A model generated the notes under the pieces. The model ran no database searches, was not told the DNA's origin, and was given only the letters and a program-made list of their open reading frames with translations. Below, piece by piece: positions 1-28,070 of a stretch of 49,134 nucleotides of DNA. Origin of the DNA: Gemmatimonadota bacterium (GTDB lineage Bacteria > Gemmatimonadota > Gemmatimonadetes > Gemmatimonadales > Gemmatimonadaceae); the NCBI GenBank assembly GCA_021324775.1, contig JAJPIM010000022.1, positions 1 through 49,134 of the forward strand. The letters run 5' to 3'. Position numbers and translations under genes: made by a program. Each line of letters begins with the position of its first letter. Position 1 is the first letter of the stretch.

Positions 1-84
1 CCGGCAGACCTCGGCGGCTTTCCCGCCCTCCGCCTCGCGTACCATCGCCAGGATCTGCTCATCGCTGAACCGGCTCTTCCGCAT
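1..84 (-). CDS. IS3-family transposase OrfA, N-terminal fragment cut by window edge
   Basis: Reading leftwards from the ATG at 82-84, the 28 visible codons begin MRKSRFSDEQILAMVREAEG and continue GKAAEVCR. This is the helix-turn-helix start typical of OrfA of IS3-family elements (IS407-like group). A good ribosome binding site (GGGAGGATCCG before ATG) supports the start. OrfA binds the element ends and normally yields the full transposase by frameshifting into OrfB. Both the rest of OrfA and all of OrfB lie outside the window, so intactness cannot be judged. The element end should lie within roughly 85-150, but I could not fix an inverted repeat. It sits just outside the tRNA-bounded island that starts near 257. 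Confidence 0.75.
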   Translation of the reverse strand, partial: MRKSRFSDEQILAMVREAEGGKAAEVCR

Positions 85-256
85 CGGATCCTCCCGCCTC
101 AGGCAGGGTCAGGACCCATAATTAGTGTTCCTCATCGCGGGGGGAAGGTCACGGGGATAGAAGTTACGATCTGTGGCCAGCACATGGGTACTGCCCTTGG
201 TGCGTCGAGGCCCTATCGGGGAGCAGGGACGAAGTACGTCGCCGCAAGGAAGCCCG

Positions 257-303
257 AATCGGGACGGCGGGATTTGACCGGCACGCCACGAGCTGAACGC
301 GAG
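257..303. repeat. Truncated copy of tRNA-Pro 3' end (left boundary repeat)
   Basis: Positions 257-277 repeat exactly the last part of the tRNA-Pro gene (core CGGGACGGCGGGATTTGA) found intact at 5394-5414 and again at 5291-5311. Similarity to the 5291 copy continues for about 25 more bases (ACCG..., then GCCACGAGC.GAACGCGAG). The bases just left of it (241-256) also resemble those left of the true tRNA end. A 3' tRNA fragment in direct orientation, about 5 kb from the intact gene, is the usual footprint of a tRNA-targeted integrative element. The interval contains a tyrosine integrase remnant, which agrees. Confidence 0.7.
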
Positions 304-725
304 CCCAGCGCCGTTGGAGATAGCGGACCTGGGACCCATGGGGGATTCGGTTCTTCCGGGTGGATCATTCGATTCGGGGTTCAGGTGCCTTCGCGACTCA
401 CACCCCGATCGGTTGGATCGGCTACTCAGGCGACTTGAGGCGCCACGGACATAGCTGAGAGCGCACCGAGAAGTTCGCGAGAGAGCTAACGACCTTGAAC
501 CCCGCGCTGTTTATCGTGGAAGGCACCAGGCTCGACGAGAAAGCCGCGACCAAGGAGCCCGCAGTGCACGAGGCGGCTCGCGAGGTGGTGCGTCGAGAGA
601 AAGGACTCGTAATTGGCGACTCGGGATCGACCTGGTGGCTCAGTCACGCGCAACCAAGCCGCCGCGGATGCACCGGCGTAGCGGCAGCTCGCCATTCTCG
701 ACCGACTTCGCACGGACGGGCGGCG
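304..725. other. No gene recognised
   Basis: Short open frames exist on both strands but none has a recognisable protein, a convincing ribosome binding site or normal length. It lies between the left tRNA-end repeat and the stop codon of the leftward protease gene, and probably is decayed island DNA. Confidence 0.5.
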
Positions 726-1691
726 TCAGGACGCGGGCGGACGCGAGAACACCTTCGAGACCCCGACGGACTCGGGCTTGAGGATCTCAATAATTAGCGG
801 GTCGGCCAAGCGGGCATCGAGGGCGTGTCCGTAACCGATCGGCATTTCAATATTCCCCTCAACTGCCGTATAGCTCTTCTTGGTGGGCGTCGAGAGGCGG
901 GGATTCTCCACGAGCAACATCGCTGCCTTGGGTATGCGGGTCCATTGCACTACAACGCCGAGCGCCTTTCCGGACACCAGGTCGAAGACCGGACCCCCAC
1001 TGTTTCCAGGATTGACCACCGCGTCGATCTGAAAGAAAGGAGACAGATTCCGTGGAGCCCCAGGATACGGAAAGACGGCGCTGACGATCCCTGCTGAGAA
1101 AGATGGGTTGATGACCGCTCCGAGAATCTCTCGGTGCAGTAGACGTCCGTAAGGGTATCCGCAAATCCCGATTTGATCGCCCTCTTCGCAATCTGACGTC
1201 GCGGACTCCAAAACACTGAGTGGCGGCAAGGGTGTTTTCGGTAGCCGCACCCTCAGCACGGCAAGGTCAAGTGTTTCGTCACTGACAATGCCGTCGATGG
1301 GAGCCATGCCAAAGCCATATAACGTACGCCCGGCGTCTTGGCGCGTTGGCACATGGATGAGCGCCCGTAGCGGGGTAAGAGTCTGCGAAGCGCCCTTCGC
1401 AATGGCTTGCGATTCTTCGATCCATGGCTGTACCACGTGCTTCGCAGTCACGGCGATGCCGCTTTCGTGTACGAAGAAGCCAGAACCAATAATACCGATC
1501 TTCTCGTACAGCTCCTTCACCGATTCCTTGGTGAACGCGTCTCCTGGTCTCGGATCAACGAGTTCGCCCGGCGGAATCGCAATGGCGACGACGCTGGGCT
1601 TCACCCGTCGAAACACTTCCCGGCGCGTCGCGGCGTGCGGCGGTCGGGTGCCGTCGTTGCCATACTCCTTCCGGCGCTTGGCCTGCCCCAT
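726..1691 (-). CDS. Trypsin-like (HtrA/S1C-type) serine protease, no PDZ domain
   Basis: A 321-residue protein with the chymotrypsin-fold triad of the trypsin-like/HtrA group: His85 in VTAKHVV, Asp142 in LDLAVLRV and Ser231 in NPGNSGGPV. The protease domain spans about residues 25-255. The C-terminal 65 residues contain no recognisable PDZ domain. The N-terminus is basic (GQAKRRKEYG) with no signal peptide, so it should act in the cytoplasm, unlike DegP. The start is supported by AGGAGGCACG before ATG. It is the only apparently intact cargo gene in the left half of the tRNA-bounded island. Its substrate is unknown. A role in mobile-element defence or stress is possible but nothing in the sequence proves it. 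Confidence 0.85.
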   Translation of the reverse strand: MGQAKRRKEYGNDGTRPPHAATRREVFRRVKPSVVAIAIPPGELVDPRPGDAFTKESVKELYEKIGIIGSGFFVHESGIAVTAKHVVQPWIEESQAIAKGASQTLTPLRALIHVPTRQDAGRTLYGFGMAPIDGIVSDETLDLAVLRVRLPKTPLPPLSVLESATSDCEEGDQIGICGYPYGRLLHREILGAVINPSFSAGIVSAVFPYPGAPRNLSPFFQIDAVVNPGNSGGPVFDLVSGKALGVVVQWTRIPKAAMLLVENPRLSTPTKKSYTAVEGNIEMPIGYGHALDARLADPLIIEILKPESVGVSKVFSRPPAS

Positions 1692-1819
1692 CGTGCCTCC
1701 TTCGGATTGCCGACACGCAGCTCGCTAGGCGCCGCCGTCGTATCGATCGGCGAGGAAATCTATGAAGGCGTTCGCCGCTTCCGCGTGATCCTCAAACGGT
1801 ACCATCGGGAACGCGAGAC

Positions 1820-2301
1820 CGGCGGCTGGGCGCCATTCGGCAGCTGCGGTGGGGAGATATACTTTGGGACCGCAGCTCGATTAGGTGGCGCGCGGAAGCA
1901 GACGAGAGGTGGCGCGAGTGGGTCGCGTCGGCACCAGATGCTCTCCTCGGCGAGCTCCGGCAGTTTCAGCGCCAGCTCAATGCGGTTGGTGGCTGGGTCT
2001 TCGCGGCAGAGCGCAACGCGGCAATCCCGAGGACCGTCACCTTTTCGACCGGTGGCTGGTACATGCCGAGCGGAAGGCGAAGTTACCTAAGCTCGAGGGC
2101 GGGCTCTGGCACCCGTATCGGCGGAAGAGGGCGACTGAGCGGAAGCACCTGTCGATTACCGATGTCCCGGCGGCCGGCGGGTTGCAGGACACCGCAACGT
2201 TGCTCACGTGCTATCAACGGCCCATAAACGACGCGCTCCTCGCGGTGATGAGCGAGGAGCGCAAAGTGCGAGACGTCGCGGTGCTTGCACTTAGGTCCTG
2301 A
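1820..2301 (+). pseudogene. Tyrosine recombinase/integrase remnant, frameshifted
   Basis: From about 1820 one frame reads RRLGAIRQLRWGDILWDR, then RWREWVASAPDALLGELRQF and NAVGGWVFAAERN, ending near 2025. The sequence then continues in another frame with HLFDRWLVHAERKAKLPKLE, LWHPYRRKRATERKH and DTATLLTCYQRP. This matches the C-terminal catalytic domain of phage-type integrases: first Arg in the GRR-like segment, His-x-x-Arg in HPYR, and the nucleophile Tyr in CYQ near the C-terminus. The N-terminal arm-binding and core-binding domains are missing, and a one-base frameshift near 2021-2031 breaks the frame. It is probably the original integrase of the tRNA-Pro island, now dead. The exact left limit is uncertain. 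Confidence 0.7.
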
Positions 2302-2418
2302 GAAACGGACCACGAAACACATCTACAACTCGATGTTAGCGTGGGATCATGGGGCGACGCCATGGTTCGGGTCCGAATCGAGAGTCCGTGAGCGGCGACA
2401 TCGTCCGCGCAGCCGAAG

Positions 2419-3777
2419 ATGAAACGCGGCCGAGCGATCGGCGTATCAGGAGCGCGGGCGCATGAGGCGTCCCAATCCCCGCCAGACGCCTCACTGGAGC
2501 CGCCGCCTATGACCGCTGACGAGAAATCGGCCTACGCCCACACGTTCCCCGTCCATGTCGGCGTCGACACAGGGAAGAGTTTCCACAAGCTCGTCGCGCG
2601 CGGCGCGGACGGCCACCGGACGAAAGCGTTCACCGTGCCAGTCAGCCGGGCGGGCTTCGATACGGCCGACGCGCACCTGATGTCCCTCTTCCCCAATGTC
2701 TCTCGCGGGCGGATCCTCGCCGGCATCGAGTTCGCCGGGCACCACGGCTTCACCTTCGCGCACGACCTCCGCCGGCGGGGCTACGTGATCGTCAATGTCC
2801 TCCCCTCGGTCACCAAGCGCTTCAAGGAGGTCGAGGACAATAGCCCGAGGAAAGACGACGCCAAGGATGCTGCACAGATTGGCAAGTTGCTCGAAGCCGG
2901 ACTCTTCGTCGGCTTCCCCGACCTGCACGAGCTCCCGGCCGAGCTCCGGCTGCTCACGACCGAGCGCCAGCGCGTTACGGTCGACGAGACGCGGCTCCGG
3001 AATCGTTTGTTGAGCGTGCTCGATCTCGCCTGGCCAGAGTTTGCTGGGTTCTTCTGCACGATCGCCAAGCCGACCGCCCTCGCGCTCCTCGGCCGGTGGC
3101 CGCTCCCACGTGACCTAGCCGGTGCGACGCCAGAGACGGTGTACCGGGTGGCCAAGACCGTCTCGCAGAACCACCTCCCGCGCGAGCGCGTGGCCCGTCT
3201 ACTCGACGCCGCGCGGACCAGTGTCGCCTTGAAAACGGCGGCCTCCGCGCGCCGCGCCGAGATCCACCGGTTGCTCACCCGGTGGGAGCTCCTGCGGTGC
3301 CAGCTCCACGAGATCGACACGCGGCTCGCGCTACTCGTCGAGCAGCACCCCGCCGCCCGGGCCCTCACGACCGTGCCAGGGGTGAGCGTCGTGTGTGCGG
3401 CCACCCTCGTCGCGGAGCTCGGGACGCCGGAGACCTAGGAGTCGCCACGCCAGGTCTTGAAGCTCGCGGGTATGAACTTGGCGAGGAAAGAGAGCGGCAC
3501 GTCGGTGCGCGGGCGGATCAAGCAGACCAAGCGGGGCCGGCCGGCGCTTCGCCGACAGCTCTTCCTGCTGGCGGCCCGCTGGTGTATGACCCGGGGCCTC
3601 TATCGAAGCGAGTACCTGGCGCTCCGGGCCCGCAATGGCGGGGCGAAGACCAGTGCGATGTGCGCCATCGCCCGGAAGCTCGTGCCCCTGCTGCTCCACA
3701 TCATGCAGACCGGGGAAGCCTTCGACGAGATGCGCTGGTGCGCGGTCCACGACCGGGTACCGTCGCGCGCGGCGTAA
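2419..3777 (+). pseudogene. IS110-family transposase interrupted by an amber codon
   Basis: Residues from about 45 on (VGVDTGKSFHKLVARG, then GIEFAGHHG and KDDAKDAAQIGKLLEAG) form the RuvC-like DEDD domain of IS110-family transposases. The C-terminal Tnp_20 domain follows (TTVPGVSVVCAATLVAELG... QVLKLAGMNL...). A TAG at 3436-3438 falls where homologues usually have Tyr (TPET-stop-ESPRQ). The frame then continues unbroken to the stop at 3775-3777, giving 339 + 112 residues. A single substitution therefore inactivated, or nearly inactivated, the gene. The ATG at 2509 (MTADEKSAYAH) may be the real start rather than 2419. IS110 elements lack long inverted repeats and encode a bridge RNA in a non-coding end; the gene-free flanks 2302-2418 and 3778-4425 are where it could be. 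Confidence 0.88.
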
Positions 3778-4425
3778 AACCGTTAGTGCACTAGGTGATC
3801 GACCGAATGTCCCGTGCCTCATCTGTCTCTGAGCCGAGCGTAGGGGGAGATGCTTCGACCATCCAAACCTGTCGCGGCCTCTGACGGTCCGCCGTTGGAG
3901 TGACCGCCGTGCTGACTCACGTCCTCCGGTTTCCCCCGGACCTGAAGCGCCCGTGAAGATGAGTCGTGCCCGGTGAGACGCGTGCGCGGCTGGCCGGAGC
4001 ACCCAGGATCTTTGAGTGTCGCGCGACGGTCCCACCAGGTACGCTGCTCCTCGGCGCTGTTTGACAACTGACCGTCGGTGTTGCCCCATGCGGCGAGGCC
4101 CGGTGACCCGACCGCCCCAGCTGAGGCCCAACGAAACACTCGGCCCGCCGCGCAGGGCCGACCCTGCACACGCCCGATCGGGCCACGCCCGCATGGCGGT
4201 GACAGCGCGTGAGGTCCAGCGACCCGGACGGCCCAGTGAGGCCCCAATTCACACTCGACTCGCGCTCGCACGCCGCAAAGAGCAGCGCCATACATACGTC
4301 CGCACTCCCTTGGTCTCGTCTTTTGTCACCGCGTCGAGTAGTCTAGTGCGCCTGGCAAGTCGGTCGTAGGTCTGCAATGCGCGATCCACGCCGTATCGGA
4401 TCAGTCGAAACTACGTGACAACTTC
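3778..4425. other. No gene recognised; right flank of IS110 element
   Basis: About 650 bases without a recognisable protein on either strand. Long frames exist on the minus strand (3819-4295) but their residue composition is that of GC-rich shadow reading. Part of this stretch may be the non-coding right end of the IS110 element. Confidence 0.45.
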
Positions 4426-4839
4426 TCACCTTCCATGGCTAACGCGTAGAATCCGGCCATCGGCCTTGCTGATCTCGACAACCGCTACGCCGCCGATATA
4501 ATCTCTGCCTGGGTGGACGTGAGGAGTTGATCCTTCAACGGTCCACGTATCGCCAGACAGCGTGGCCTGGAATGGTCGCTCGGAATTCAGAAGCTCGGCG
4601 GAATAGATCGGGCTTAGCACGGCTTCAGCGATACGCACCGCGGTGAGACTGTCCGGCACGAAGCCGTTTGGTGGAACATATGAATGTTTGACAGCATCCT
4701 GGGGTTGCTGCGCCGATGCATCCCGGATGCCACCTAGACCGACAAGCACAAACACGAGAATGAGCCATTGCCAATCATGGATGGACCGTACCAATCTCTG
4801 TTGTGGCGCCCATGGTTGGGTGATAAGGCGTCGGATCAT
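4426..4839 (-). CDS. NTF2-fold immunity protein (Imm-NTF2-2/YbbC-YhhH type), exported
   Basis: A 137-residue protein. After a signal peptide (hydrophobic WLILVFVLVGLGG, cleavage likely after DASA) comes a domain with the pattern of the NTF2-fold immunity family often encoded after Rhs toxin tips: YVPPNGFVPDSLTAVRIAEA, LSPIY, RPFQATLSGDTWTV, then GGVAVVEISKADGRILRVSHGR. It lies directly downstream of the Rhs tip. The first ATG (4837-4839) lies inside the toxin frame, giving a 65-base overlap. A later start, such as the TTG/GTG codons near 4791-4797, would shorten the overlap. The signal peptide suggests it neutralises its toxin in the periplasm. Confidence in the family is good; toxin specificity is unknown. 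Confidence 0.8.
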   Translation of the reverse strand: MIRRLITQPWAPQQRLVRSIHDWQWLILVFVLVGLGGIRDASAQQPQDAVKHSYVPPNGFVPDSLTAVRIAEAVLSPIYSAELLNSERPFQATLSGDTWTVEGSTPHVHPGRDYIGGVAVVEISKADGRILRVSHGR

Positions 4840-5290
4840 AGCGTAGCATCCTCCCTGAAGGCGTGACTACATAGGCCGGCTTAGCATAACGGTCCGCAGT
4901 ACGCTTGTCGCGGTCCGAGAAGTGCTCGTCATCAAAGACGCCGTTGCTTGCAGCCCCGTGACTGTGATAGTACCCCTCATATCCCGGGACGCTGGCATCG
5001 ACCTCGCTGCCCTCTCTGCCCTGACGAATGCCAGCGGTGTAGTTGTAATCCCCTGAATTCTCCTTCACGACGTCACCGACATATTCTCTGTCCTCGGCTA
5101 CAGACTCGGTGTAGATAGACTGCATCCCCGCTCTCGCGGCCAAGTCAGGGGTGGCATGCGCCGCGGCCTTGTCTATTCCTTCCTGCGCTTGCGTGCAATT
5201 TCCGCTAACATGGCATGGATCCAGCCCAAACGGATCATCGTAGTTGACGGACCACCGCCCGCGAAACGAATTTGTAAGTCGCTGTGCTGC
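4775..5290 (-). pseudogene. Rhs/polymorphic toxin C-terminal tip (DUF4329-like), 5' truncated
   Basis: On the minus strand the frame reads VNYDDPFGLDPC near 5245, the DPFGL hinge that ends the Rhs core, followed by about 155 residues of variable tip. The tip has EGYYHSHGAASNG, FSDRDKRTADRY and AYVVTPSGRMLRYDP, resembling DUF4329, a domain found at Rhs C-termini. Nothing of the Rhs beta-propeller/shell precedes the hinge: similarity stops at the tRNA-end repeat (5291-5337). The frame stays open through that repeat and the tRNA gene to an ATG at 5437, but that upstream reading is an artefact of the tRNA. It is thus an orphan tip, paired with the immunity gene downstream. It may be silent, or serve as donor sequence for tip exchange. 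Confidence 0.72.
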
Positions 5291-5337
5291 AATCGGGACG
5301 GCGGGATTTGACCGAGAATGCCACGAGCGGAACGCGA
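5291..5337. repeat. Second truncated copy of tRNA-Pro 3' end (right boundary repeat)
   Basis: Positions 5291-5311 equal 257-277 and 5394-5414. The following bases (ACCGAGAATGCCACGAGCGG and on) match the left copy at 278-303 with a few differences. It abuts the truncation point of the Rhs tip and lies 100 bases from the intact tRNA gene. This gives three copies in all, suggesting more than one integration or excision event at the same tRNA. Confidence 0.7.
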
Positions 5338-5344
5338 GTGGCGA

Positions 5345-5392
5345 CGGAAAAAAGCCCGGCGAAACGAGTCGGCCCCGCCGAAAGGCGAGGCC
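5345..5392 (-). terminator. Probable intrinsic terminator of tRNA-Pro
   Basis: Read on the minus strand, directly after the tRNA comes a hairpin with arms GGCC.CGCC and GGCG.GGCC around TTTC. A second possible stem (CGGCG...CGCCG) follows and then GGGC with a run of six T. This is the expected layout of a factor-independent terminator for the leftward tRNA gene. Confidence 0.55.
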
Positions 5393-5395
5393 GAA

Positions 5396-5469
5396 TCGGG
5401 ACGGCGGGATTTGAACCCGCGACCCCCTGAACCCCATTCAGGTGCGCTACCGGGCTGCGCTACGTCCCG
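5396..5469 (-). tRNA. tRNA-Pro (anticodon GGG)
   Basis: The minus strand folds as a cloverleaf. The acceptor CGGGACG (5469-5463) pairs with CGTCCCG (5403-5397), with discriminator A at 5396. The anticodon stem CCTGA/TCAGG encloses the loop ATGGGGT, giving anticodon GGG. The T-arm is GCGGGTTCAAATCCCGC. CCA is not encoded. Its 3' part is the repeat that bounds the accessory island. Confidence 0.95.
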
Positions 5470-27590: not shown

Positions 27591-28070
27591 GCCCAGCATC
27601 TGAGCCACCCCGATCCGGTTCCCCGCCACACCCGCCGCGATCCGCGCCGCCGTCGCCAGGAGCGCCGCGCACACGGCGACGATCAGCCCCTGGAACAACT
27701 GGTTGTCCGTGATCGCCGACCCCCAGCCGGCGAGAACGGCGAGCCCAATCGCCCAGAGTGCGGCGCGATCCGCTCGCCGCCTCTTCCGGGTCGCACTCCA
27801 TGCCAGCCCCCCCGCGAGGACGCTCACCCAGATCGCCCAGTTGATCCCCATGCGCGCCTGGTAGATGATCGCCGTTCCGACCCACGCGGCCGCGATCCCC
27901 AGCGCCCACAACCCGCCAAGGATCCACCCCCCGTCCTTCTCCTTCTCCTTTCTGTTTTCTCCCTTCTCGGTCGCTGGTGCCCATCCGCCCTCCTCGCCTC
28001 CGGCCATTCCCCCCGCCGTCCATGTGCCCCCCTCGGCGACACCTTCCGCCCCGCCGGCCTGCCCCAGCAT
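27585..28070 (-). CDS. DUF4173/DUF4153-type membrane protein, N-terminal part of a frameshifted gene
   Basis: This frame supplies the N-terminus. A charged, Lys/Glu-rich stretch (EKGENRKEKEKDGG) encoded by a pyrimidine tract on the opposite strand is followed by four membrane segments (WILGGLWALGIAAAWVGTAI; GINWAIWVSVLAGGLAWSAT; ALWAIGLAVLAGWGSAITDN; LIVAVCAALLATAARIAAG). At AQMLGA (near 27590) it must shift one base to continue as HQRLISVFSIFE. The uninterrupted protein would be about 640 residues. Sequencing error, recent mutation or slippage cannot be told apart from the sequence. The start codon is uncertain (28070 or an internal ATG). Confidence 0.7.

Follow-up and report, generated by a model that had tools for sequence, protein, structure and literature searches.

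A likely displaced Rhs toxin tip of the Tox-JAB-2 type and its immunity gene beside a tRNA-Pro gene in a Gemmatimonadota bacterium

The window analysed here is a stretch of 49,134 nucleotides that makes up the whole of contig C39 in the assembly of a Gemmatimonadota bacterium. Read along the minus strand, a tRNA-Pro (GGG) gene is followed by a tail of hairpins that closes with a copy of the tRNA 3' end, by a short linker, by the remnant of an Rhs hinge that leads into a toxin tip frame, and by an immunity gene; remains of transposase genes, a protease gene and a further copy of the tRNA 3' end lie between these and the contig end. The coordinates of these features, and of the loci in other genomes to which we refer, are given in Table 1.

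Table 1. Features at the locus in the window and loci used for comparison
Feature	Coordinates	Strand	Evidence or remark
IS3-like transposase end, by translation, at the contig end	1-154		99% identity with the beginning of contig C42
Third copy of the tRNA-Pro 3' end	258..276	-	~22 nt of left flank common with the copy at 5310-5292
Trypsin-like protease gene	1691-726		
IS110-type transposase gene, broken	2419-3777		
Imm-NTF2-2 immunity gene, 137 aa, N-terminal signal sequence	4426..4839	-	PF15631; signal from translation
Rhs toxin tip frame: hinge remnant and DUF4329/Tox-JAB-2	4775..5265	-	PF14220, E 2.4e-17; aligned to the tips of G024 and E. coli
Rhs hinge remnant VNYDDPFGLDPC, one-base deletion relative to the full rhs gene on C42	5213..5265	-	blastn; 50 hinges compared
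26-nt linker, weakly like the tRNA-Pro 3' flank of congener G002	5266..5291	-	Hinge and flank comparisons
tRNA-Pro locus tail: terminator hairpin (5382-5355), second hairpin, tRNA 3' end copy (5310-5292)	5292..5394	-	Terminator call, repeat search
tRNA-Pro (GGG)	5396..5469	-	ARAGORN; Rfam RF00005
Rhs tip arrays of genus g23, other genomes	L014 4337-14940, L049 137-1990 (G024:C2 578-592 kb); L082 5714-11123; L083, L084 (G198); L085 (G193)		
Leader-sharing orphan tips, other genomes	L088 1690, L092 611, L093 2062, L096 2401, L089 4407, L086, L087		

The minus-strand frame ending at 4775 matches DUF4329 (PF14220) with 63.4 bits against a curated cut-off of 28.6 (E 2.4e-17), and the gene that overlaps its 3' end matches Imm-NTF2-2 (PF15631) with 67.4 bits against a cut-off of 26 (E 1.3e-18), so that the Rhs toxin tip and NTF2-fold immunity gene proposed in an earlier, sequence-only reading of this DNA are both borne out by domain matches. 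DUF4329 corresponds to Tox-JAB-2, for which Imm-NTF2-2 is the listed partner in a survey of polymorphic toxins that describes its motif as E, H[ST]H, S and D (PMC3482391). The tip carries residues of the JAMM type, namely E (codon at 5086), H-x-H (4966 and 4960) and S-x-x-D (4918 and 4909); in an alignment, the E, HxH and SxxD columns are common to the tips of the window, of genome G024 and of E. coli, and the motif is intact in the window. Judged by its sequence, the window pair is a further member of the documented Tox-JAB-2/Imm-NTF2-2 pair. The same toxin-immunity pair is held by E. coli and Klebsiella records, where YhhH is the immunity protein, and it resembles the window pair in its two domains, its gene order, the overlap of the genes, the E/HxH/SxxD residues and the export of the immunity protein; the identity is only 35-37%, however, and the window tip differs from its enterobacterial counterpart in the absence of an Rhs shell and in its frameshifted hinge.

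DUF4329 is rare in the lineage, being found in 2 of 179 genomes of the family and in 2 of 395 sampled genomes of the phylum, and the window adds one orphan Rhs tip to the record of this family. Scans of genome contigs returned no relatives of the tip, and a sequence search of the PDB gave no match for the tip and chance-level matches for the immunity protein. Considering that a single-sequence AlphaFold model reached a mean pLDDT of 46, too poor for use, the assignment of the tip as a metallopeptidase rests on sequence motifs. A second DUF4329 and Imm-NTF2-2 pair of the same genome lies on contig C29 (locus L013, 128-2148), where the toxin frame is broken by a frameshift and an IS3-like end stands 5' of it.

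The site at which such a toxin would act can be approached through its immunity protein. The window protein begins with a signal sequence that ends in ASA|QQ, read by eye from the translation, as were the signal peptides of all the immunity proteins considered here, and its export, as claimed in the sequence-only reading, is therefore upheld. Export signals were recognised in five of the six Imm-NTF2-2 proteins inspected, which are those of the window, of C29 and G024 (both lipobox-like), of Klebsiella/E. coli (YhhH) and of a Geobacter plasmid, the last with no DUF4329 motif mapped beside it. The sixth, from Eleftheria, has no export signal, and the stretch inspected around it has no DUF4329-like motif; every Imm-NTF2-2 protein found with a DUF4329 tip bears an export signal. 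An immunity protein located in the periplasm would point to a periplasmic target of the tip, and the metal-binding motif would point to a peptidase or an amidase. The literature has assigned the domain otherwise: Tox-JAB-2 was proposed to be a nuclease by analogy with RadC in a 2012 survey (PMC3482391), and a Salmonella survey lists DUF4329 under RNases (PMC10469887). If these assignments applied here, the tip would be a cytoplasmic nuclease or RNase and the export of the immunity protein would be incidental, a reading that we regard as unlikely, since the signals recur across distant lineages, the only protein without one has no DUF4329-like motif within the stretch that was inspected, and the periplasm contains neither RNA nor chromosomal DNA. 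The recurrence of export signals among the immunity proteins speaks for a periplasmic metallopeptidase rather than for the published label. A domain that is called a nuclease or RNase in the literature is thus more likely to act in the periplasm, which is directly testable.

The DPFGL hinge was found in the window tip, and nothing Rhs-like was detected left of position 5267 (left being upstream in the reading direction of the tip), so that the Rhs shell is absent. Using blastn, the hinge aligned with that of a full rhs gene on contig C42 at 92.5% identity over 40 bp (5251-5213), and at 88% over 49 bp when one gap is included; the missing base throws the upstream portion of the window hinge out of frame. 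In the tip frame there is no ATG, GTG or TTG between the repeat and the domain before TTG 5143 and ATG 5125. The absence of a start codon over this interval and the frameshifted hinge agree with the earlier description of an orphan cassette without its shell. The gene on C42 (hinge DPVNYDDPFGLDPC) has an open frame of 1,824 codons, an N-terminal signal sequence and a different tip, and its nearly identical hinge answers the earlier suggestion to look for a full rhs gene of the same hinge elsewhere in this genome. C42 also holds a second, displaced rhs end that is cut by an IS-like end. No T6SS sheath gene was found in the genome.

Orphan tips of this kind are documented in Salmonella, where rhs tips without start signals become active again after recombination with the main rhs gene (PMC3967940). 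The window tip resembles the orphan rhs-CT/rhsI modules of the Salmonella STM0292 type in being a displaced tip with its immunity gene, in keeping the hinge and, the internal TTG 5143 and ATG 5125 apart, in apparently having no translation start of its own; it differs from them in that it and the full rhs gene are on different contigs and share ~50 bp of hinge homology instead of 522 bp, from which recombination back into rhs would be expected to be much less efficient. As in the C-terminal displacement arrays of rhs genes (Jackson et al. 2009), in which tips are displaced by incoming tips, a full gene of the same genome shares the hinge, but the window tip is single and stray and is not part of an array adjoining its rhs gene. 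The orphan state, together with the remnants on C42 and C29, matches the pattern usually seen with C-terminal displacement (PMC2935791). The left end of the window tip is atypical: orphan tips of the family usually start at the FTQ/STQ codons before DPIG, a point of the Rhs core that lies ~60 nt upstream of the cut in the window tip. That cut falls within the hinge, which indicates that this copy has lost the usual left end.

On the other side of the junction stands the tRNA-Pro locus. The 19-nt tRNA-Pro 3' end, CAAATCCCGCCGTCCCGAT, occurs in three exact copies (5413-5395, 5310-5292 and 276-258), all in one orientation, and nowhere else in the genome; its chance expectation in the window is 0.06, even with 3 mismatches allowed. 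A terminator-like hairpin (5382-5355) stands between the tRNA and the tip, and the tRNA was the only Rfam match. The same succession of tRNA-Pro(GGG), terminator, hairpin and tRNA 3' end copy, with a tail of ~100 bp, is found in G079 and G100, of another family, and in G022, of the same family, and in the sequence inspected no Rhs tip follows the repeat in any of the three. The same T-arm T is missing from the repeat copies of the window, G022 and G100, and in G100 the tRNA and the copy both read TCGAATCC, which argues that the copy tracks its tRNA. Given that the tail recurs behind tRNA-Pro(GGG) in relatives with no tip after it, the repeat is part of the tRNA locus, not of the toxin cassette. 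We take the tail to be reminiscent of the distal repeats of E. coli tyrT. ARAGORN also called a second tRNA-Pro(GGG) at 27662-27764, which at 103 bp and with an odd anticodon position is probably spurious or a pseudogene.

The sequence-only reading had placed the Rhs similarity from just upstream of the DPFGL hinge to the start of the repeat, the cassette being cut exactly there, and had taken the tRNA-derived repeat for the cassette edge and a sign of site-specific capture. The hinge is indeed present; the similarity, however, stops short, since in strict alignments with 50 Rhs hinge sequences it reaches no further left than 5267, so that ~26 nt separate it from the repeat, and the occurrence of tail and repeat in G079, G100 and G022 without a tip deprives the repeat of its role as an edge. 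Were capture nevertheless the explanation, an integrase acting at the tRNA-Pro 3' end would have placed the tip cassette, or a 5-kb island, between 5310-5292 and 276-258. The confinement of the three exact copies to this contig in one orientation, the ~22 nt of left flank that two of them also share, and the use of tRNA-Pro(GGG) as an ordinary island site in other relatives would all suit such an event, and the cassette has direct repeats of a tRNA 3' end beside it, as do genomic islands at such ends. Unlike those islands, however, the window has its repeat within a tail that is independent of the cassette, as shown by the second copy at loci without a tip in three genomes of two families, its tip stands off the repeat by the ~26 nt, and no tyrosine recombinase was seen in the ORFs of 1-5300, although an element could have lost one; the island repeats of relatives, moreover, comprise 45 nt of the tRNA 3' half and not 19-21 nt. 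We therefore consider capture very unlikely. The copy at 276-258 may be either the end of a 5-kb island (277-5291) or a second copy of the tail.

The 26-nt linker that separates the hinge from the repeat was compared with several possible sources. An origin in Rhs sequence was rejected, as strict alignments never pass 5267 and softer ones pass it no more than they do with a shuffled linker; derivation from the leader that precedes orphan cassettes in other genera was likewise not supported (p 0.18). In the congener G002, the native sequence 3' of tRNA-Pro bears a weak resemblance to the linker (p 0.0025 when anchored at the left, with no correction for ~20 comparisons; p 0.013 when summed over relatives). 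If the linker were native tRNA-Pro flank, a short insertion after the tRNA would account for the repeat, and the Rhs junction, 26 nt further on, would be a join of its own, at which the comparison hints. This resemblance, a junction that lies inside the hinge and off the standard left end of orphan tips, and the IS3-like and IS110-type remnants close by are what would be expected if illegitimate or IS-mediated recombination had joined the tip to the tRNA flank once it had left an Rhs array, its position beside the tRNA being accidental. No IS end is present at the junction itself, which counts against such a join, and on balance we give it an even chance of being correct.

A join of this kind is compatible with, and narrower than, the explanation that we prefer for the locus as a whole, which is likely to be a displaced orphan C-terminal module of an Rhs protein, composed of a Tox-JAB-2 tip and Imm-NTF2-2, lacking a shell and truncated within the hinge, in IS-rich surroundings by tRNA-Pro(GGG). 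As it stands, the tip would be silent, tempered by the internal ATG at 5125, which sits behind a purine-rich stretch and could lead to expression of the JAB domain alone. The immunity gene would guard against kin that still bear this tip, and the tip itself could be revived only through recombination at the hinge with a full rhs gene. Once delivered, the tip would act in the periplasm as a zinc metallopeptidase. The adjacent tRNA-end repeat is a feature of the tRNA locus in its own right.

Outside the window, genus g23 has arrays of orphan Rhs tips that bear on how such tips move. In G024, the 11 orphans of the first array all start with GCCCCGCCACGCAG and the 5 orphans of the second all have GCCCACGCAGCCG, and the 7 orphans of the G198 array all have TCTATTCCACGCAG; the invariant unit start in the g23 arrays is the CACGCAG of the Rhs core (the T-Q codons before DPIG). 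Left of the unit start, the similarity between units stops abruptly in the G024 arrays and fades over a few tens of bases in G198. Each of four arrays (two in G024, one each in G198 and G193) has a tyrosine recombinase next to it or inside it, and among the tyrosine recombinases of 12 genomes these four form one clade (support 0.955) that is separate from the XerC/D-like proteins. The recombinase closest to this clade, at 41%, is from G194, on a 4.3-kb contig without Rhs sequence, and the C29 pair has a convergent tyrosine recombinase ~150 bp away that is more distant than the array clade. In the standing model, Rhs tips are swapped by homologous recombination and an integrase is not known to occur with Rhs (PMC2935791).

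These arrays raise the idea that Rhs tips of the family are moved in an integron-like manner by a dedicated tyrosine recombinase at a fixed CACGCAG core site, the window pair being a worn stray from this pool. We hold this to be unlikely. The invariant unit start is no proof of site-specific capture, because homologous recombination within arrays would also preserve a common start, and the window pair has neither the CACGCAG site nor a recombinase, so that the arrays are not tied to it. With invariant starts and a separate recombinase clade, the g23 arrays are nonetheless relevant to how Rhs tips are swapped and merit their own study. Orphan leaders, folded as attC-like sites, showed no excess relative to shuffles. 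Among six further genomes, from six genera, we also observed that the full rhs gene lacks, and the orphan Rhs tips share, a leader of at least ~100 nt upstream of the hinge.
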